From Thalassospira povalilytica (GTDB lineage Bacteria; Pseudomonadota; Alphaproteobacteria; Rhodospirillales; Thalassospiraceae): a stretch of 64,000 nt of DNA. Below, one piece after another: positions 10,952 through 20,474 of this stretch (position 1 is its first letter; each line of letters opens with the position of its first letter). The position numbers and the translations under genes were made by a program. The notes below the pieces were generated by a model, which was given only the letters and a program-made list of their open reading frames with translations, was not told the origin of the DNA and did no database searches. The stretch lies in contig NZ_PGTS01000004.1 of assembly GCF_002844235.1 (NCBI RefSeq), positions 124,001 to 188,000 on the forward strand, read 5' to 3'.

Positions 10952-12133
10952 TCAGCTGACCTTTTCTGGATCAAAAACCGTATTATCAAGGAAACTGTCG
11001 GGCCCGACAAAGGACCGGTCATCGGCATCATTTGCGCCTTCGACCCGCCAGTCATGTTTGGGCACTGCGACATCAAGATCAGCCACCGCCGCGCGATACA
11101 GATCGGGGCGATAAACCTGGCGCACCACGGAATTAAGATCGGAATCTGCGGGCACCTGTCCCCAGCGTTTCATCTGTGTCCCCACCCAGCTTCCCTGTGA
11201 CAGCCACGGGAAAGTAGCGGTATAGCGATAAAACACATGGCGATCGGGGATATCGGTCGGGGCTTCGCCCGGGCGCAGAACCGGCCGCCCGCCCAGCGAC
11301 GCCTTAAGAATTTCATAGGGCGCGCCGACATTGGATTCTTCGGACAACATTTGCGCCAGCTCGGAACGGTTGCCCGGCTGATCGGCCCATTCGGCGGCAC
11401 GCACAAGGGCCCGGACAAGACCCGATACCGTTTCCGGGCTGGAATTCACCCAGTCTTCGCGAATGCCCAGAACCTTTTCCGGGCTGCGCGGCCAGATATC
11501 ATCCTTAAGCGCGACAATCACGCCATCGCCATGAAATACCGCGCGCTGGTTCCAGGGCTCACCCACGCAATAACCATCGACCCAGCCATTGCGCAGACTG
11601 TCAAACATGCGCGGCGGGGCAATCACACCGATATTCACATCCCGATCCGGATCGATCCCGGCCGCCGCCATCCAGTAGCGCAGCTCGTAATTATGGCTGG
11701 AGAACGGAAATACCGTCGCAAAGGACATGACCGGCCGACCCGCGGCGCGATCTTCATCAATCACCTTTTTAAGGGCGCGGCCTGAAAGTCCGCGCGGGCC
11801 ATGCATTGCCGCCGGGTCGGCTTCAAGCATGCGCTGATACAATCTGGTTGAAACCGTGATCGCATTTCCCCCGCGCCCCAATGCCATCGGCACGACAATA
11901 TGCTGAACCGGGACCCCGCCAAGGCCAAGACGGGCGGCAATCGGGATGCCTGCCAGAAGATGGGCTGCTTCGAACACGCCATAGGAAAGCTTGTCGCGAA
12001 TGGCCGCCCATGACATTTCACGGACCAGTTCCAGATCAATATTTTCCTGCTCGGCAAAGCCCATCGCGCGCGCGACAACCGGTATGGCGCAATCAACAAG
12101 CGGGACAAAACCAAGACGAACCTTTTCAGCCAT
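10952..12133 (-). CDS. nasS: NasS-like nitrate sensor, antagonist of NasT
   Basis: 393 residues of the NrtA/CmpA/SsuA binding-protein fold (VRLGFVPLVDCAIPVVARAMGFAEQENIDL at the start), but with no signal peptide or lipobox, so it acts in the cytoplasm. In studied systems (Azotobacter, Paracoccus, Bradyrhizobium) NasS binds NasT and blocks it until nitrate or nitrite releases the pair. The gene starts 3 nt after the nasT stop, and both lie beside the nitrate genes, which supports the call over a transporter subunit. Confidence 0.93.
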   Translation of the reverse strand: MAEKVRLGFVPLVDCAIPVVARAMGFAEQENIDLELVREMSWAAIRDKLSYGVFEAAHLLAGIPIAARLGLGGVPVQHIVVPMALGRGGNAITVSTRLYQRMLEADPAAMHGPRGLSGRALKKVIDEDRAAGRPVMSFATVFPFSSHNYELRYWMAAAGIDPDRDVNIGVIAPPRMFDSLRNGWVDGYCVGEPWNQRAVFHGDGVIVALKDDIWPRSPEKVLGIREDWVNSSPETVSGLVRALVRAAEWADQPGNRSELAQMLSEESNVGAPYEILKASLGGRPVLRPGEAPTDIPDRHVFYRYTATFPWLSQGSWVGTQMKRWGQVPADSDLNSVVRQVYRPDLYRAAVADLDVAVPKHDWRVEGANDADDRSFVGPDSFLDNTVFDPEKVS

Positions 12134-12136
12134 TCC

Positions 12137-12727
12137 TCAAAACTCCAACTGAAACGCCGTGATGACGCTTTGGGCGATCTCGTAAATCTTGCGATTCTGT
12201 TTCATGGCGTTCTTGCGCAGCAGCGCATAAGAATCTTCTTCGGACAGGCCTTTTTCCTTCATCAGGATGCCTTTGGCCCGTTCGATCAGTTTGCGTTCAT
12301 TGAGTTTTGCCTGCGCCTCGTCGCGTTCGCGTCTGAGCTGATCAAAAACATTGAAGCGCGATATCGCCATTTCGACGATGGGGCGAATGCGGTCCTGTCG
12401 CAGACCGTCCACCACATAGGCACTGACCCCGGCCGATACGGCTTCCTGGATCATTGAGGCGTCGCTTTGATCAACAAACATCGCGATCGGGCGGGCAATG
12501 GCGCGCGACACCTGAAACATCTGTTCAAGCGTGTCACGGTCCGGGTTTTCCAGATCAATAATGATGATATCAGGCGCCAGCGCCTGAATGCGTTCGACCA
12601 GATTATGTGACGTCCCGATACGGGCGACGCGGGCATATCCGCTTTCGACCAGGCCACGTTCGACAATGGCTGCGCGATCGGGATTCTCGTCAATTACCAG
12701 AATGTTATATTCTTCCAGCTTTACCAA
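12137..12727 (-). CDS. nasT: NasT-like ANTAR-domain antiterminator
   Basis: 196 residues: a receiver-like domain with Asp at position 58 (IIIIDLE) and a C-terminal ANTAR RNA-binding domain at about 137-192 (ERAKGILMKEKGLSEEDSYALLRK). The usual receiver Lys looks replaced (VVDGL), as expected when control comes from NasS binding and not phosphorylation. ANTAR proteins bind paired hexaloop hairpins in leader RNA and prevent termination; such hairpins are present before narK and nirB in this window. The likely start is TTG at 12727 (no ATG fits), with GGGAG about 12 nt upstream. Confidence 0.93.
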   Translation of the reverse strand: MVKLEEYNILVIDENPDRAAIVERGLVESGYARVARIGTSHNLVERIQALAPDIIIIDLENPDRDTLEQMFQVSRAIARPIAMFVDQSDASMIQEAVSAGVSAYVVDGLRQDRIRPIVEMAISRFNVFDQLRRERDEAQAKLNERKLIERAKGILMKEKGLSEEDSYALLRKNAMKQNRKIYEIAQSVITAFQLEF

Positions 12728-12864: not shown

Positions 12865-14229
12865 TTATTCCGCCGGTACTGCCTGTGCCGGTGATGACGC
12901 AGCAAGGCGTTCGGCCTGTGCGCTTTCAAACCGTGCTTTTTCCTCGGCCTGGGTCGCAGCTGAGAACCGCACCGCCAGAGCCGCGAACGAGCAAACGATC
13001 ACGGCACAGCCCAGATACAGAAGCCCTTCCTGATAGGTAAGTTCTTCGGACTTGAACAGGAAGCCCGCCGCAACCGCACCGGCATTGCCACCGGCACCAA
13101 CGATACCGGCAACCGAACCCAGTGCCTTGCGATTGACAAACGGTACGATCCCGAAAGTTGCACCTTCGGACATCTGCACAAACAGCGAGAAGACGATCAT
13201 CACGGCAACCGCAACAGCCAGTGCTTCCATCTGGGAGAAGGCAACAAGTGCGACACCTTCGATGAACAGCGCCATGAACAGGAATTTGACGCGACCAGAA
13301 AGGCCACCCTTGGCGGCAAACTTATCGGAAAACACCCCGCCCAGCGTGCGGGCAAAGATGTTCATCAGACCAAACAGACCGGCAATCATGCCCGCCGTTG
13401 CCAGCGACAGTTCAAACTTGTCGAAGAAATAGATCGCCGCAATGTTGTTGATGGTCAGTTCAACGCCAAAGCAGGCAGCATAGACCAGGAACAATGCCCA
13501 AACGCGATAATCGGAAACCGCGGCCATCATGCCCTTGGCAGCACCGGCTGTATCATCTTCGGGTTTGAGCGCGCCGCTTTTGCGCATCTCGTCATAGTTA
13601 CCTTCCGGGCAATCCGTGGTGAATTTCCAGTACAGGGCGGCAACCACCAGCATGATCGCACCCGGGAACACCATCGCCAAACGCCAGCCCATGGTTTCCG
13701 CAACCCCGAAACCGAGCACCATGGCAAGGATCAGCGGCATGACCATCTGGGTGACACCACCGCCAAGGTTACCCCAGCCGGCCGTCGTGGCATTTGCCGT
13801 GCCGACGACATTGGGGGCAAACATCATGGATGTATGATACTGGGTAATCACAAAGGATGCCCCGATCGCCCCGATGGCAAGACGCGCCAAAAGGAAGGTT
13901 TCATAGCTGTCAGCAAGACCGATCAGCATGACCGGAAGCGACCCCAGAACCAGAAGCCCGGTATAGGTCTTGCGCGGGCCGATCTTGTCGCAAAGCGGCC
14001 CGATCAAAAGCCGCACCAGAACCGTGATGGCAACCGATGCAATGATGGTGCTGCCGATTTCGCTTTTGGTAAGTCCAAGATCATCGCGCACCAGCGGCAT
14101 CAACGGCGCGATCCCGAACCAGCCAAAGAAGCACAGGAAGAATGAAAGCCAGGTCAGGTGAAAAGTCCGCATCTGAACAGTCTTGAGACTGAAAAGATTT
14201 ATGCGTGTAGCCTTGTTCTTGATTTCCAT
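12865..14229 (-). CDS. narK: Nitrate/nitrite transporter, NarK/NasA-type MFS protein
   Basis: Inner-membrane transporter that brings nitrate in for assimilation, about 12 membrane spans, 454 residues from the chosen start. I chose Met at 14229 (MEIKNKATRINLF) because family members begin this way; the open frame extends upstream to 14316 but that part is the leader RNA. The nitrate signature GWGNLGGGVTQ is present, and FFGWFGIAPLMPLVR marks the first helix. It is the first gene of the minus-strand nas transcript ahead of nasT and nasS, behind a sigma-54-like promoter and ANTAR-type hairpins. Confidence 0.93.
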   Translation of the reverse strand: MEIKNKATRINLFSLKTVQMRTFHLTWLSFFLCFFGWFGIAPLMPLVRDDLGLTKSEIGSTIIASVAITVLVRLLIGPLCDKIGPRKTYTGLLVLGSLPVMLIGLADSYETFLLARLAIGAIGASFVITQYHTSMMFAPNVVGTANATTAGWGNLGGGVTQMVMPLILAMVLGFGVAETMGWRLAMVFPGAIMLVVAALYWKFTTDCPEGNYDEMRKSGALKPEDDTAGAAKGMMAAVSDYRVWALFLVYAACFGVELTINNIAAIYFFDKFELSLATAGMIAGLFGLMNIFARTLGGVFSDKFAAKGGLSGRVKFLFMALFIEGVALVAFSQMEALAVAVAVMIVFSLFVQMSEGATFGIVPFVNRKALGSVAGIVGAGGNAGAVAAGFLFKSEELTYQEGLLYLGCAVIVCSFAALAVRFSAATQAEEKARFESAQAERLAASSPAQAVPAE

Positions 14230-14394
14230 AATGTGAAGCCCTTCGTTTAGGTCGCGCAGAGCTTGCGAGATGCTGTGTACGACCGACGGTTTTTCCCCAT
14301 GGGCCTCTTGCTTCATCTGATGGATTCCGCAGGCGACCCGTCATTCGTATCGGAAAGGCTGCGCGTCCATCGCGCTGCTGTTCCAAACGTCTGA

Positions 14395-14439
14395 TCGTCC
14401 GCCGTTGGACGAAGAACTGTGAGCCACCCGTCGTTGGGC
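14395..14439 (-). promoter_or_regulatory. Paired hexaloop hairpins (ANTAR target) in the narK leader
   Basis: On the minus strand two small hairpins lie in series. P1 (14439-14426) has stem GCCC/GGGU and loop AACGAC. P2 (14412-14395) has stem UCGUCC/GGACGA and loop AACGGC. Both loops are six bases with A first and G fourth, the known recognition rule for ANTAR proteins; the linker is 13 nt. A third hairpin downstream (arms 14371-14375 and 14361-14365) has no clear U-tract, so the terminator it should control is not obvious. Confidence 0.7.
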
Positions 14440-14476
14440 CTGCTTTCGTCAAAGCTGCTCACACAGGATGACATGC

Positions 14477-14492
14477 TGCAAACAGCGCGCCA
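14477..14492 (-). promoter_or_regulatory. Sigma-54-like promoter for narK
   Basis: The minus strand reads TGGCGCG-N4-TTGCA, with the invariant GG and GC 10 nt apart, very close to the RpoN consensus. Transcription would start near 14465, about 25 nt before the first ANTAR-type hairpin and about 235 nt before the narK ATG. Confidence 0.65.
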
Positions 14493-14742
14493 GTTTTTTC
14501 GCGATGCGGGATAAAATCTGCAAATTGCTGGAATCCAATGGTTTTGGACGAACGCGCCTGCAAACAGCGATTTTGGATTTTTGCAAATTTCGCAATTTTG
14601 CACATTTTTTAATCTTATCAATTTTGCACTGTTTATTTTTTAATCAGATACGATTATTCCCCGCATCACAACTCAACCATCCGGATTGCAATCCCCGTTA
14701 AATTACAGACGGTTGCAAGATAATTTTCCCCGTTTTCCATTC
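14493..14742. promoter_or_regulatory. AT-rich control region between the divergent nas transcripts
   Basis: About 250 bp with no gene. It is much more AT-rich than its surroundings and contains AATTTTGCAC twice as a direct repeat (14594-14603 and 14620-14629) plus related TTTTGCAAA at 14578-14586. A sigma-54 activator such as NtrC would need sites here; I cannot match the repeats to a canonical NtrC site. A short open frame on the plus strand here has no ribosome site and is not called. Confidence 0.45.
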
Positions 14743-14758
14743 TGGCACGGGACTTGAA
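14743..14758 (+). promoter_or_regulatory. Sigma-54-like promoter for nirB
   Basis: TGGCACG-N4-TTGAA. The -24 part is a perfect RpoN match; the -12 part has GA where GC is usual, so strength may be reduced. The start would fall near 14768-14770, immediately before hairpin P1 at 14772. Confidence 0.6.
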
Positions 14759-14771
14759 TATATCGAAGTAT

Positions 14772-14862
14772 GAGCGCGGGCAGTGTCGCCTGCGGCTCCG
14801 GCCGAAAAGCCGATTGCATATATAAAGAATCCAAAGACGGGTTCACCGGATAACGACGTCCG
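14772..14862 (+). promoter_or_regulatory. Paired hexaloop hairpins (ANTAR target) in the nirB leader
   Basis: P1 (14772-14798): ten stem pairs with one G-U pair and one bulged G, loop AGUGUC at 14782-14787. P2 (14847-14862): stem CGGAU/GUCCG, loop AACGAC at 14852-14857. Both loops have A first and G fourth. P2 uses exactly the loop of narK P1. The 48-nt linker is longer than in the narK leader. A terminator follows at 14868-14909. Confidence 0.75.
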
Positions 14863-14867
14863 TTGCG

Positions 14868-14909
14868 AAATGCCTTTTAAAAGAGCAGGCCGCATCGGGC
14901 GTTTTTTTT
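14868..14909 (+). terminator. Leader terminator upstream of nirB, probably relieved by NasT
   Basis: The arms AAATGCC (14868-14874) and GGCGTTT (14898-14904) pair with one G-U, and a compact inner CCG/CGG hairpin lies at 14890-14898. Eight T residues follow (14902-14909). It lies 5 nt after hairpin P2 and 39 nt before the nirB ATG, the expected place for an antitermination-controlled terminator. Confidence 0.65.
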
Positions 14910-14948
14910 GTGCCAACTTCGCATCCCGCGACGAGGAGCCAGAGACAA

Positions 14949-17420
14949 ATGAACCACGTCCCTGCAAACATAAAAGCCGCAAAATCCCGCCTGATTGTCA
15001 TTGGCAACGGCATGGCCGGTATGAGAACGGTCGAAGAAATCCTGAACCGCGCACCGGACAAATACGACATCACGGTTTTCGGTGCCGAACCGCGCGTGAA
15101 CTATAACCGCATCATGCTTTCGCCCCTGCTGTCGGGCGAAAAGAATTTTGACGAAATCGTCATCAACACCCCGGAATGGTATCGCGAAAACAACATCCAT
15201 CTTTATTCCGGCGACCCGGTTGTTGAAATTGACCGTATCCGCAAGGTCGTCATTTCCAAAAGCGGTACGGAAACCGAATATGACCGCCTGTTGCTTGCAA
15301 CCGGTTCGGACCCGATCATCATTCCGGTTCCCGGCCACAAACTTTCTGGCGTTGTTACCTTCCGCGATGTCGATGATGTTGACGTCATGCTGGGTGCTGC
15401 GGCCAAGGGCGGTCCAGCCGTTGTGATTGGCGGCGGGCTTTTGGGTCTTGAAGCCGCGGTCGGGCTTCAGGCACGCGGCATGGATGTGACGGTTTTGCAT
15501 CTGGCAGGGCACGTCATGGAACGCCAGCTTGATCCGTCGGCGGGTTACCTTTTGGCACAGGAACTTGAACGGCGCGGCATCACTGTAATTACCGAGGCGG
15601 ACACCGCCGAAATCGTCGGAACGGAAACCGTAACCGGCGTGCGTCTTAAGGACGGACGCATGATCCCGGCTGATCTGGTGGTCATGGCTGTTGGCATTCG
15701 CCCCAACGGGCGCCTTGCCGCAGACACCGGCATCGCAGTCGAACGTGGCATTGTCGTTGACGATGTCATGACCACCAGTGATCCGGCGATCTTTGCGGTT
15801 GGCGAATGCGTACAGCATCGCGGCCAGTGTTATGGCCTTGTCGCACCGCTGTTTGAAATGGCGAAATCCTGTGCCGATCATTTGACAGAGATTGAGACCG
15901 ATGGCTACGCCGGGTCGGTCACCTCGACCAAACTTAAGGTCACGGGTGTTGATGTCTTTTCCGCCGGTGATTTTTCAGGTGGCGGCAATACAGAAGAAAT
16001 CGTGTTCCGCGATGCCGGACGCGGTGTTTACAAACGCATCGTCCTTGAAGACGGCAAGATCAAGGGCGCGGTTCTTTACGGCGATACCACCGATGGCGGC
16101 TGGTATTTCCAGCTGATGAAGGACGGACAGGATGTTACGGAACTGCGTGACACCCTTGCCTTTGGTCAGGCGTTTGCCGGGGGATCTGCCGGAAACCCTC
16201 TTGACGCCGTTGCAGCCCTGCCAGATGACGCAGAAATTTGTGGCTGTAACGGCGTTTGCAAAGGTTCCATCGTTTCTGCCATCACCGAAAAGGGCCTGAC
16301 GACCCTTGATGAAGTCAAAGGCCACACCAAGGCGTCGGCGTCCTGCGGATCATGTGCAGGGCTGGTTGAAAACCTGCTTGCGGCGACCCTTGGCGGTGAG
16401 TATCAGGCCGCAACGGTCAAGCCGATCTGCACCTGTACCGATCATGATCATGACAGCGTGCGCCGCCTGATCATTGCCAAGGGTCTTAAATCGATGCCGG
16501 CAATCATGCAGGAACTGGAATGGAAATCATCCGATGGGTGCCATGTTTGCCGCCCGGCATTGAACTATTACCTTCTGGCTGCATGGCCGGGGGAATATGT
16601 CGATCATGGCGCATCACGTTTCATCAATGAACGCGTGCATGCCAACATCCAGAAAGACGGCACCTATTCCGTGGTGCCGCGCATGTGGGGTGGCCTGACC
16701 AACCCGCGCGAATTGCGCGCAATTGCCGATGTCGCCGATAAATTCGACATCCCGACGGTCAAGGTTACCGGCGGTCAGCGCATTGATCTTTTGGGTGTGA
16801 AAAAGGAAGACCTGCCGGCGGTCTGGGCCGATCTTAATGCCGCAGGCATGGTATCGGGTCATGCCTATGGCAAATCGCTTCGGACTGTCAAAACATGCGT
16901 CGGACAGGAATGGTGTCGTTTCGGCACCCAGATGTCGATGAGCATGGGGGTCGAACTTGAAAAAATGACCTGGGGATCCTGGATGCCCCACAAGTTCAAA
17001 ATGGCTGTATCGGGCTGTCCGCGCAACTGTGCCGAAGCAACCATCAAGGATTTCGGCGTGGTGGCAACCGATGGCGGCTGGGATTTGCATGTTGGCGGCA
17101 ATGGCGGCATCCATGTCCGCGCGACCGAACTTCTGTGCAAGGTCACAACCGATGAAGAGGTCAAGGAATATTGCGGTGCCTTCATCCAGCTTTACCGCGA
17201 AGAGGCCCGTTATCTGGAACGCACCGCACCGTGGATCGAACGCGTTGGTCTGAAACATGTTCAGGAACGCGTTGTGGATGATGCCGAAAACCGCAAGGCC
17301 CTGTTTGATCGCTTCATGATCAGTCAGCAAACCGCCCAGAAAGACCCATGGGCCGAACGCGCATCCGAGGGCGTTGACGCCCACGAATTCAAACCCCTTT
17401 CGATGGTCGCAGCGGAGTAA
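14949..17420 (+). CDS. nirB: Assimilatory nitrite reductase large subunit, NirB
   Basis: Reduces nitrite to ammonium in the cytoplasm with NAD(P)H electrons. 823 residues from the ATG at 14949, which has GAGGAG about 10 nt upstream (an in-frame GTG at 14910 lies inside the terminator T-run and is rejected). Order: FAD/NAD(P)H oxidoreductase with GNGMAGMR near 19-26; BFD-like [2Fe-2S] domain with CGCNGVC near 430 and a second Cys pair near 466; sirohaem/[4Fe-4S] reductase with C650, C656, C690 and C694 (C-x5-C, C-x3-C). First gene of nirB-nirD-nasC-cysG. Confidence 0.96.
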   Translation: MNHVPANIKAAKSRLIVIGNGMAGMRTVEEILNRAPDKYDITVFGAEPRVNYNRIMLSPLLSGEKNFDEIVINTPEWYRENNIHLYSGDPVVEIDRIRKVVISKSGTETEYDRLLLATGSDPIIIPVPGHKLSGVVTFRDVDDVDVMLGAAAKGGPAVVIGGGLLGLEAAVGLQARGMDVTVLHLAGHVMERQLDPSAGYLLAQELERRGITVITEADTAEIVGTETVTGVRLKDGRMIPADLVVMAVGIRPNGRLAADTGIAVERGIVVDDVMTTSDPAIFAVGECVQHRGQCYGLVAPLFEMAKSCADHLTEIETDGYAGSVTSTKLKVTGVDVFSAGDFSGGGNTEEIVFRDAGRGVYKRIVLEDGKIKGAVLYGDTTDGGWYFQLMKDGQDVTELRDTLAFGQAFAGGSAGNPLDAVAALPDDAEICGCNGVCKGSIVSAITEKGLTTLDEVKGHTKASASCGSCAGLVENLLAATLGGEYQAATVKPICTCTDHDHDSVRRLIIAKGLKSMPAIMQELEWKSSDGCHVCRPALNYYLLAAWPGEYVDHGASRFINERVHANIQKDGTYSVVPRMWGGLTNPRELRAIADVADKFDIPTVKVTGGQRIDLLGVKKEDLPAVWADLNAAGMVSGHAYGKSLRTVKTCVGQEWCRFGTQMSMSMGVELEKMTWGSWMPHKFKMAVSGCPRNCAEATIKDFGVVATDGGWDLHVGGNGGIHVRATELLCKVTTDEEVKEYCGAFIQLYREEARYLERTAPWIERVGLKHVQERVVDDAENRKALFDRFMISQQTAQKDPWAERASEGVDAHEFKPLSMVAAE

Positions 17421-17425
17421 GACAG

Positions 17426-17776
17426 ATGACGAACAATCTGACATGGGTAGAAGTCGGACCCGCTGCCAATATCCCGCAGCAAGGCGCGCGTACCCTGCAA
17501 ACCCAAACCGATCGCATCGCGATTTTCAGAACCCTTGACGATCAGATCTTTGCCCTGCTTGATCGCTGCCCGCATAAGCAAGGCCCCCTGGCACAAGGCA
17601 TCGTGCATGGCCATTTCGTCACCTGCCCGCTTCATAACATGGTGTTTTCGCTTGAAACCGGCGAGGCACAGGGCCCCGATGACGGCTGTGCCGCCAAGGT
17701 CGAATGCAAGGTCATTGACGGCATGGTGCGGGTTGGCCTGACCGAACTGCAAGCTGGATTGCGCCATGCGGGATGA
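17426..17776 (+). CDS. nirD: Nitrite reductase small subunit, NirD (Rieske-type)
   Basis: 116 residues with a Rieske fold. A full [2Fe-2S] ligand set is visible: C48-P-H50 and C67-P-L-H70. It partners NirB in the NAD(P)H-dependent nitrite reductase. The gene begins 5 nt after nirB and its end overlaps the start of the nitrate reductase gene by 11 nt, so expression of all three should be coupled. Confidence 0.95.
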   Translation: MTNNLTWVEVGPAANIPQQGARTLQTQTDRIAIFRTLDDQIFALLDRCPHKQGPLAQGIVHGHFVTCPLHNMVFSLETGEAQGPDDGCAAKVECKVIDGMVRVGLTELQAGLRHAG

Positions 17777-20474
17777 GGTCAAAACAACCTGCCCCTATTG
17801 CGGTGTTGGCTGTGGCCTGATCATTTCGCCAACCCGTGACGGATGGGCTGTGGGCGGCGACCCCGACCACCCCGCCAACCTTGGGCGCATTTGTTCCAAG
17901 GGTGCGGCCCTGATCGATACGATCATGGCCGAGACCAAACGCGATTTTCGCCTGCTTGAACCCGAAGTCGACGGCAAACAGGTTGGCTGGAAAACCGCCA
18001 TTGCCGAAACCGCAAATCGCCTGCGCGACACCATTGAAAAACATGGTCCGAAATCGGTGGCCTTTTACGTGTCAGGGCAGCTCCTGACCGAGGATTATTA
18101 TGTCGCCAACAAACTGATCAAGGGCTTTATCGGATCGCCCCATATCGATACCAATTCACGTCTTTGCATGGCATCGACCGTGGTCGGGCACAAGCGCGCC
18201 TTTGGCGCCGATGTGGTGCCCGGATGTTACGAAGACCTTGAAATCGCCGATCTGGTCATTCTGACCGGGTCAAATCTGGCATGGTGCCACCCGGTGCTTA
18301 ATCAGCGCCTGCGTGCGGCCAGGGAAAAGCACGGCACAAAGATTGTTGTGATTGATCCAAGACGGACGGCAAGTTGCGATATTGCCGATTTGCACCTTGC
18401 CATCAAGCCGGGCAGCGACGTTGCCCTGTTTAACGGTTTGCTGGCCTGGCTTGACCAGACGGGCAATACCGATCTTCGTTATGTAGCCCGCCATGTGAGT
18501 GGCTATGAACAAGCCGTGGCAGAGGCGCGTGCCGACTGCCCGGATATCGAGACAACCGCACAAAAATGCGGGCTCGACCTGCAAGACAGCGCCGATGAAA
18601 CCGGCTCAGGTCTGGGAAAACTGGAAACGTTGTTTAACTGGTTTGCGGCTTTTGATCGTACCGTCACGGTCTTTTCACAAGGCGTGAACCAGTCATCTAG
18701 CGGGTCGGATAAGGTCAATGCGATCCTTAATTGCCATCTGGCAACCGGTCGTGTCGGAAAACCGGGTTCAAGCCCGTTTTCCGTCACCGGCCAACCCAAT
18801 GCCATGGGCGGGCGCGAAGTTGGCGGCCTCGCCAATCAGCTTGCCGCCCACATGAACCCCAATGATCCGGTCGATATTGATCGTGTCAGACGGTTCTGGA
18901 AATCCGACGCCCTTGAACCGGGCGAAGGATACAAGGCCGTCGACATGTTTCGCGCCATTGAAACCGGTGAAATCAAGGCCGTCTGGATCATGGCAACCAA
19001 CCCGGCAGTCAGCCTTCCGGATGCGGATCGAGTGCGCCTTGCACTGTCGCGTTGTCCGCTTGTGATTGCATCCGATGTCGTCAATGACACCGACACATTG
19101 CGCCACGCCCATATCAAACTGCCCGCCACCGGCTGGGCAGAAAAATCGGGCACCGTCACCAATTCCGAACGGCGCATATCGCGCCAACGCCCGTTCCGCG
19201 AGGCCCAGGGCAATGCCAAGCCCGACTGGTGGATCATGACCCAAGTCGCGCGTGCCATGGGATATGGCAAGGCTTTCAAATACAAGGATCCCGCCGATAT
19301 CTTTGCCGAACATGCCGCCCTTTCGGAATTTGAAAATGACGGCATGCGGGCCTTTGATATCGGCATCTGGCACAAGGCCAGGAAATCGGCCTATGACGCG
19401 ATGGAACCGTTTCAGTGGCCGGCTTCTCGCAAACATCAACCGGCCAGCGGTTCCCAACGGCTTTATGGTGATGGCATATTCACCACATCAAGCGGTCGGG
19501 CCAAAATGCTGGCTGTTGCGCATATTCCACCGCAATCCCGAACCAGTCGCGACTTCCCGCTGATTGCCAATAGCGGCCGGTACCGCGATCAATGGCACAC
19601 CATGACGCGCACCGGAACAGCGGCACGTCTTTCGGCCCATCGTCCGGAACCGCTGCTTGAAATCCACCCAAAGGACGCCGCCAAATTCGGGCTTTCGGAT
19701 GGTGGCATTGCCCGGATCAAAAGCAGCCATGGTACGTCCCTGATGCGGGTTCTGGTCACAGATGCGCAAATGCCCGGACAGGTTTTCATTCCCATGCACT
19801 GGAACGATATCTTTTCGGCAGCAGGCGGGATCGGTCGGCTTTTGCCCCCCAATGTTGATCCCCATTCCGGCCAGCCCGAAAGCAAACATGTCCCCGTTGC
19901 CCTCGAACCATTTGCCCCGAAATGGCAGGGATTGCTGTTTTCAAGCACCCCGGTTGATCTTGGCAGCCTGCCCTATTGGGTGGCGGCGACCGGACCGGGC
20001 AGCATGATTTATGAAATCGCCGGCTCCGAACCGATGATGTTCAAGTCCCTTTTGCCGATTGCGGCCAATGAGGATGACGAACAGGTCATTGAATATAGCG
20101 ACAGCAAAAAGGGCGTTCATCGTTATGCCCGATTGAACGGTGATCGCGTTACCGGCGCCCTTTTCATCGGCCCGGACCGCCCGGCCCTTGGCCGGGATTG
20201 GGTTTCAAACCTGCTGGCAACCGATCAGGTCGCCCCTCTCGAACGCAATGCCCTTCTGGCCGGGCGGATGCCCGATGCGGGCGCAATCAATGATCGCCTG
20301 ATCTGTTCATGTTTCTCGGTCGGGCTGGCGGCCATCAGCCGTGCCATTTCTGATCAGAATGCCGTAACCGCCGCCGATATTGGCCGTTTGCTTCAGGCCG
20401 GGACCGGGTGCGGTTCGTGCCTGCCGGAAATAAAGGAGATTCTCGATGACGCATTACCGCGCGCCGCAGAATAA
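17766..20474 (+). CDS. nasC: Assimilatory nitrate reductase catalytic subunit
   Basis: Molybdenum bis-MGD enzyme reducing nitrate to nitrite in the cytoplasm; 902 residues. The [4Fe-4S] ligands are C9, C12, C16 and C43 (CPYCGVGC). C134 (SRLCMAS) is the expected Mo ligand. A molybdopterin-dinucleotide-binding domain follows near residue 600, and a C-terminal BFD-like [2Fe-2S] domain has C847, C849, C882 and C885, as in NasA/NasC reductases that take electrons through extra clusters. The gene is called nasA in some species. No separate NasB-type electron-transfer gene is in this operon. Confidence 0.95.
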   Translation: MRDEVKTTCPYCGVGCGLIISPTRDGWAVGGDPDHPANLGRICSKGAALIDTIMAETKRDFRLLEPEVDGKQVGWKTAIAETANRLRDTIEKHGPKSVAFYVSGQLLTEDYYVANKLIKGFIGSPHIDTNSRLCMASTVVGHKRAFGADVVPGCYEDLEIADLVILTGSNLAWCHPVLNQRLRAAREKHGTKIVVIDPRRTASCDIADLHLAIKPGSDVALFNGLLAWLDQTGNTDLRYVARHVSGYEQAVAEARADCPDIETTAQKCGLDLQDSADETGSGLGKLETLFNWFAAFDRTVTVFSQGVNQSSSGSDKVNAILNCHLATGRVGKPGSSPFSVTGQPNAMGGREVGGLANQLAAHMNPNDPVDIDRVRRFWKSDALEPGEGYKAVDMFRAIETGEIKAVWIMATNPAVSLPDADRVRLALSRCPLVIASDVVNDTDTLRHAHIKLPATGWAEKSGTVTNSERRISRQRPFREAQGNAKPDWWIMTQVARAMGYGKAFKYKDPADIFAEHAALSEFENDGMRAFDIGIWHKARKSAYDAMEPFQWPASRKHQPASGSQRLYGDGIFTTSSGRAKMLAVAHIPPQSRTSRDFPLIANSGRYRDQWHTMTRTGTAARLSAHRPEPLLEIHPKDAAKFGLSDGGIARIKSSHGTSLMRVLVTDAQMPGQVFIPMHWNDIFSAAGGIGRLLPPNVDPHSGQPESKHVPVALEPFAPKWQGLLFSSTPVDLGSLPYWVAATGPGSMIYEIAGSEPMMFKSLLPIAANEDDEQVIEYSDSKKGVHRYARLNGDRVTGALFIGPDRPALGRDWVSNLLATDQVAPLERNALLAGRMPDAGAINDRLICSCFSVGLAAISRAISDQNAVTAADIGRLLQAGTGCGSCLPEIKEILDDALPRAAE

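Follow-up and report, generated by a model that had tools for sequence, protein, structure and literature searches.

The 64-kb stretch of DNA analysed here (the window), whose closest named loci are those of Thalassospira, holds a 0.7-kb intergenic region common to two divergent gene sets, narK-nasT-nasS on the minus strand and nirB with nasA on the plus strand. The minus-strand set comprises a narK-type MFS transporter (12865..14229, -; Pfam MFS_1), a receiver and ANTAR protein, NasT, presumed to be an RNA-binding regulator (12137..12727, -; Pfam ANTAR 5e-20, Response_reg 3.7e-11), and an NMT1-like protein, NasS (10952..12133, -; Pfam NMT1_2 7.9e-74), presumed to be the nitrate-sensing partner of NasT, a role taken from the available part of PMC3795266. 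These domains bear out the preliminary description of this DNA, in which a NasT-like ANTAR protein and NasS were placed beside the leaders; phmmer matches of NasT in the PDB were 6wsh (4.1e-22), 1s8n (2.3e-21) and the nitrate regulatory protein 4akk (2.5e-8). The plus-strand set consists of a putative nirB-type nitrite reductase (14949..17420, +) and, 3' of it, a molybdopterin oxidoreductase read as nasA (17766-20474, +), both named by inference from their Pfam domains. The narK start was placed at ATG 14229-14227; ATG 14316 was rejected as a start, the upstream in-frame extension being unlike in relatives, four of which have only six open codons there.

Most of the genus keeps this arrangement: 22 of the 28 other Thalassospira genomes carry a close nasT, and the narK//nirB intergenic region with both leaders was recovered in all 22, the six genomes without a close nasT (G003, G007, G008, G013, G019, G027) being left out of the genus set. 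Each transcript is preceded by a sigma54-like promoter, TGGCGCGCTGTTTGCA for narK (TGGCGCG-N4-TTTGCA; 14477..14492, -) and TGGCACGGGACTTGAA for nirB (TGGCAC-N5-TTGAA; 14743..14758, +), and both are kept in the genus with the exception of L034, whose nirB promoter is a run of N. The label is given on what we take to be the sigma54 consensus, from which the -12 part of the nirB promoter (TTGAA/TTGTA) deviates. Between the two promoters lie the AT-rich direct repeats TGATTAAAAAATAAACA and AGATTAAAAAATGTGCA (14599-14646, -), largely kept in the genus alignment, which may be activator sites and which by eye are unlike the NtrC pattern quoted in the accessible text of PMC5424462.

The nirB leader carries three hairpins whose six-base loops have A at position 1 and G at position 4: H0, CGCGGGC[AGUGUC]GCCUGCG (14775..14794, +), H1, GAAUCC[AAAGAC]GGGUUC (14827..14844, +), and H2, CGGAU[AACGAC]GUCCG (14847..14862, +). 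The preliminary description had paired H0 with H2; both hairpins exist, but it overlooked H1, which ends 2 nt 5' of H2 and is its partner in the tandem ANTAR pair, H0 being an additional hairpin 52 nt 5' of H2. The linker between H1 and H2 measures 1-7 nt among the 33 leaders listed. Across the 23 genus sequences the H0 loop is variable with A1 and G4 invariant, and three hairpins also precede nirB in Niveispirillum, Azospirillum sp., Caenispirillum and others, although H0 is weak (3 bp) in L080, L081, L085, L095 and, within Thalassospira, L040.

Downstream, a T8 tract (14902..14909, +) closes a terminator stem-loop, ACGUCCGUUGCG...CGCAUCGGGCGU (14856..14902, +), in which minimum-energy and consensus folds alike place the 3' arm of H2. 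The terminator had been described as a hairpin with T8 following the pair; the T8 tract is where it was reported, but the 5' arm of the terminator has 14856-14862 in common with H2, so that the two structures are mutually exclusive rather than merely consecutive. A run of at least five T follows H2 in 36 of 38 nirB leaders (23 from the genus and 15 others), and the remaining two have T4. The nirB leader thus has the anatomy of ordinary ANTAR antitermination.

The narK leader holds a tandem pair of its own, P1, GCCC[AACGAC]GGGU (14439-14426, -), and P2, UCGUCC[AACGGC]GGACGA (14412-14395, -), so that the four hairpins first named at this locus, like the T8 run, were present at their reported positions, as was the loop AACGAC common to both leaders. 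The P1-P2 linker is 12-14 nt in 21 of the 23 Thalassospira leaders (13 in the window), 9 nt in the other two and 5-12 nt in 12 further leaders. The absence of a U-tract, already suspected, proved general: no run of at least five T stands between P2 and the narK start codon in any of 35 leaders (23 from the genus, 11 other named loci and L182), and the overlap between second hairpin and intrinsic terminator that marks an ANTAR antiterminator is missing from the narK leader. The 11 named loci were defined by a narK of at least 60% identity lying upstream of nasT, and all 11 have the P2 pattern, whereas L182, from another family, was found through the P2 pattern itself; L147-L149, L175 and L176, which by eye look the same as named loci, and L174, with a slightly different leader, stand outside these counts. 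A promoter and terminator scanner returned no site of either kind in 14100-15000, and it missed the nirB terminator too, for which reason its silence on the narK leader and on the narK-nasT gap is weak evidence.

Further structure lies between P2 and narK. A small hairpin, GGUCGU...GCGACC (14250..14284, -), 5' of the narK Shine-Dalgarno sequence shows pair changes in relatives, and two more hairpins, 14342-14394 and 14301-14339 (-), show changes on both sides. The narK leaders of L082-L084, L087 and L088 have a third A1/G4 hexaloop hairpin, e.g. CAGGC[AAUGGC]GCCUG, directly 3' of P2.

When hexaloop pairs with A1 and G4 were sought in dinucleotide shuffles (stems of at least 4, summing to at least 10 bp, linker 0-20), they arose in 1 of 2000 for the narK leader and 6 of 2000 for the nirB leader, the qualifying real nirB pair being H1 with H2. 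The bare pair pattern nonetheless occurs six times in the 64-kb window, both leaders included; it is not rare by itself, and the case therefore rests on conservation. Loop positions A1 and G4 hold in all five window hairpins, and two tandem six-base-loop hairpins stand in both leaders; among relatives, whose loops were counted by a script that demanded G4 and a purine at position 1, the P1 loop begins with G in 12 of 35.

P1, H1 and H0 covary across genera, with 21, 19 and 20 distinct 22-nt windows, respectively (L091, in which no H1 was found, being excluded from the H1 counts). The arms of P1, for example, read GCCC/GGGU in the window, AUUUCCCC/GGGGAAAU in L051, UUCCUCC/GGAGGAA in L052 and GUCCUCCU/GGGAGGAC in L182. 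None of 1000 3'-arm shuffles matched the observed pairing for any of these three hairpins at depths 4, 5 or 6, a control that flatters them because the hairpins were chosen by best stem. P2 and H2 are nearly unvarying across leaders; the same control is uninformative for them because they barely change, and such constancy is what one would look for in an arm that has to pair with two partners. The comparison with relatives that had been proposed as a source of covariation thus supplied it for the first hairpins, whereas the second hairpins hardly vary. Taken with the kept G4 and mostly kept A1, the adjoining nasT-nasS genes and the terminator overlap in the nirB leader, this covariation sustains the earlier proposal that both leaders are predicted NasT targets, which they probably are. 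An Rfam scan of 14000-15200 gave no match at the gathering threshold and five at E<=10, all below it.

The RNAalifold consensus of the 23 genus narK leaders points to what P2 may exclude if it is not a terminator. In this consensus the candidate anti-Shine-Dalgarno sequence GUUCUUCGU (14409..14417, -), which overlaps the 5' arm of P2, is paired with the narK Shine-Dalgarno region ACGAAGGGC (14238..14246, -) in preference to P2, and GGCGG of P2 pairs with CCGUC. All nine pairs of the GUUCUUCGU/ACGAAGGGC helix, the proposed OFF pairing, are present in 22 of the 23 genus leaders (L040 loses two), and in the conserved-helix scan it exceeds in length every other helix kept in at least 90% of 24 leaders (the 23 and L182). 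The next long-range helices have 6 bp, and one of them, between CGGCGG of the P2 loop and 3' arm (14399..14404, -) and CCGUCG (14284..14289, -), also uses P2. With columns shuffled, 4 of 200 trials contained a long-range helix of at least 9, and 9 of 1000 contained such a helix linking the P2 window to the Shine-Dalgarno window. Columns explained by the OFF pairing alone, picked after the helix was known, are invariant in 14 of 15 cases versus 56 of 203 elsewhere. Because the helix is nearly invariant it offers no compensatory proof; L087 and L091 were considered as compensatory changes and rejected, since by hand their pairing required a one-base shift of register.

In short, the candidate alternative helix over the narK Shine-Dalgarno sequence, exclusive with the bound form, is a conserved one of 9 bp, but energies do not favour it and the single-sequence tests are weak. 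Across ViennaRNA ensembles of the 23 leaders, the mean cost is 1.25 kcal/mol for holding P2 and 4.37 for forcing the OFF form. The OFF form lies a mean 3.1 kcal/mol (sd 2.3) behind the P2-held ON form in stability, and the openness of the Shine-Dalgarno sequence rises only from 0.29 to 0.37 upon holding P2. By the energy model OFF is not the default state, and as modelled these energies would lend the helix weak support. When the 18-nt anti-Shine-Dalgarno segment was shuffled, p fell below 0.05 in 16 of the 23 genus leaders, which are related and not independent (window 0.038), and in one of 11 others (L086); with a 50-nt segment it did so in none of the 23 (window 0.095) and in three of 11 others (L086, L091, L094). 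Shuffling the target gave p values of 0.086 for the window, 0.187 for L182 and 0.085 for nine clades combined, against 0.90 for ten nirB controls.

We propose, with a probability of roughly 0.57, that the locus has two outputs, antitermination at nirB and, at narK, a translational switch in which the Shine-Dalgarno sequence is hidden and NasT relieves the block. Both transcripts would start at the divergent sigma54-like promoters and carry NasT-binding leaders. By default, H2 would be absorbed into the T8 terminator of the nirB-nasA transcript; upon exposure to nitrate, NasS would release NasT, which H0 and H1 would recruit, and H2 would be held, allowing read-through into nirB-nasA. On the narK side, GUUCUUCGU, formed by the 5' arm of P2 and its flank, would by default pair with ACGAAGGGC, and CGGCGG with CCGUCG, leaving narK transcribed and poorly translated, until NasT, by holding P1 and P2 as hairpins, would free the Shine-Dalgarno sequence for translation. 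NasT binding, both default states, the direction of regulation and the one-operon rationale given below are what we infer.

The fuller proposition, that a single ANTAR regulator would act through divergent leaders, antiterminating nirB-nasA and activating narK translation while nasTS is transcribed without nitrate, strikes us as just short of an even bet. The transporter would then be switched on by nitrate, and the downstream nasT-nasS genes would be transcribed even in its absence. narK is likely the first gene of a narK-nasT-nasS transcript, and its 137-nt gap to nasT contains no terminator-like site detected by the scanner; the distance between the narK stop codon and the nasT match is 30 nt in L080, L081, L086 and L090 and 116-258 nt in six other loci, L094 falling outside these measurements. 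A terminator acting in the leader would deprive the sensor genes of transcription, which translational control of narK would not do, so an operon of this kind may avoid termination. The layout of L085 and L095, in which narK is gone and the leader stands before nasT, is not predicted by this rationale and counts against it.

The reading that survives best beside ours is that both leaders antiterminate, the narK terminator being of a kind other than the U-tract one (one that depends on Rho, or a structure that causes pausing, for instance the recurring GGCCGCC hairpin) that NasT-held P2 lets polymerase pass. It accords with the accessible portions of PMC5424462 and PMC6759348, where NasT is described as acting by antitermination, even though a translational level has also been proposed for Paracoccus, and with the recurrence by eye, in other genera, of a hairpin of GGCCGCC type in the stretch separating P2 from narK, with which GGCGG of P2 can pair over 5 bp. 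Since none of the 35 narK leaders has the T run after P2, and since this explanation leaves the conserved Shine-Dalgarno complement unaccounted for, we regard it as unlikely, albeit seriously to be weighed. Less probable still, and distinctly improbable in our estimate, is that P1 and P2 bind NasT with P2 constant only as a sequence that NasT reads, the Shine-Dalgarno match being accidental and any action of NasT on narK going through RNA stability; the OFF helix varies too little for a covariation test, is not favoured by the energies and has weak single-sequence complementarity tests, but invariance extends beyond the P2 and Shine-Dalgarno core to letters that only the OFF pairing explains (GUUCU, CCGUCG, AC, GC; the 14 of 15 columns above), and L182 keeps the OFF-pairing letters although its P1 is wholly different. 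That the hairpins are chance structures, or targets of a factor other than NasT, might appeal to the six occurrences of the bare pattern and to an H1-H2 linker of 2 nt, below the 5-12 nt given for eut leaders in the available part of PMC3369931, but conservation and covariation across genera beside nasT-nasS and a terminator overlap typical of ANTAR targets leave it hardly any credence.

The two-output reading finds partial counterparts in systems already described, which we cite from the portions of the papers accessible to us. The nasABGHC leader of Paracoccus denitrificans is likewise served by a NasT-type ANTAR protein and NasS (PMC5424462, PMC3795266), and its hairpins are thought to act by termination and antitermination, as at nirB here, with NtrBC nitrogen control above NasT and a translational level of nas control also proposed (PMC5424462). 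It differs in that nasTS precede nasA and the leader lies between nasS and nasA, and the accessible text describes no leader that hides a Shine-Dalgarno sequence (PMC5424462). The EutV RNAs of Enterococcus faecalis share with the present leaders two A1/G4 hexaloop hairpins, the second overlapping a terminator as H2 does (PMC3369931, PMC8934654); of the two, the first is the recruiter and the second the switch, a division of labour that variable first and constant second hairpins fit (PMC8934654). They differ in that the nirB leader here adds a third hairpin, with 1-7 nt between H1 and H2, and that narK is without an intrinsic terminator; eut linkers measure 5-12 nt, and 3 or 14 impaired function (PMC3369931), and no specific protein contact to loop A1 is reported in the available part of PMC8934654.

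Closer to the narK proposal are actinobacterial and mycobacterial ANTAR RNAs, whose output is at the ribosome-binding site (PMC8164766, in the part available), although in those RNAs the site is part of the motif and repression follows from protein binding, whereas here P2 lies about 150 nt upstream, would hide the site from afar, and its binding would activate. Translational control has been suggested for terminator-less ANTAR hits, one of them overlapping a ribosome site, in the accessible text of PMC3369931. As described in the available part of PMC6759348, the NasT regulon of Bradyrhizobium diazoefficiens resembles the present locus in that NasT-type hairpins are predicted in a narK leader, but differs in that NasT loss raised narK, and no mechanism for narK is given there. 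ANTAR regulators are mostly described as antiterminators, and a conserved ANTAR-driven activation of translation would, if true, widen their repertoire; what would be new is that an ANTAR protein activates by relieving a Shine-Dalgarno block from afar, and that one divergent locus has two outputs. The layout of narK also suggests why an operon holding its own sensor genes should avoid termination. The mainly non-subscription literature on ANTAR, NasT/narK and Thalassospira nasT, in its accessible parts, yielded no ANTAR activation through such a distant block.

Within the genome itself there is a single exact copy of the P2 pattern. Two models, R1 and R2, into which the window's leaders had been built, recover those leaders; the next best among the candidates scored (150 of 3550 and 150 of 1847) had E values of 8.35 and 0.04. 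A strong narK match was found in 7 of 385 genomes, four of which have the P2 pattern; the more distant narK homologues of the other three (L186, L187, L188) are without a P1-P2 leader, L188 having one hexaloop hairpin. In the order relatives L053-L061, a strict loop filter returned four pairs in three of the nine loci (L056, L060, L061), and only that of L060 lies just before nirB. A NasS/NrtA-like gene replaces narK in L089, L092 and L093, and by eye hexaloop-like hairpins, followed by T6 runs, precede that gene. Where narK is missing, in L085 and L095, nasT is directly preceded by the narK promoter with its P1-P2 leader, a layout that suggests nasT autoregulation and that L175 appears to share with L085. 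Two loci from other genomes of the order, L144 and L145, have a P2-like hairpin 5' of a NasT-like gene.
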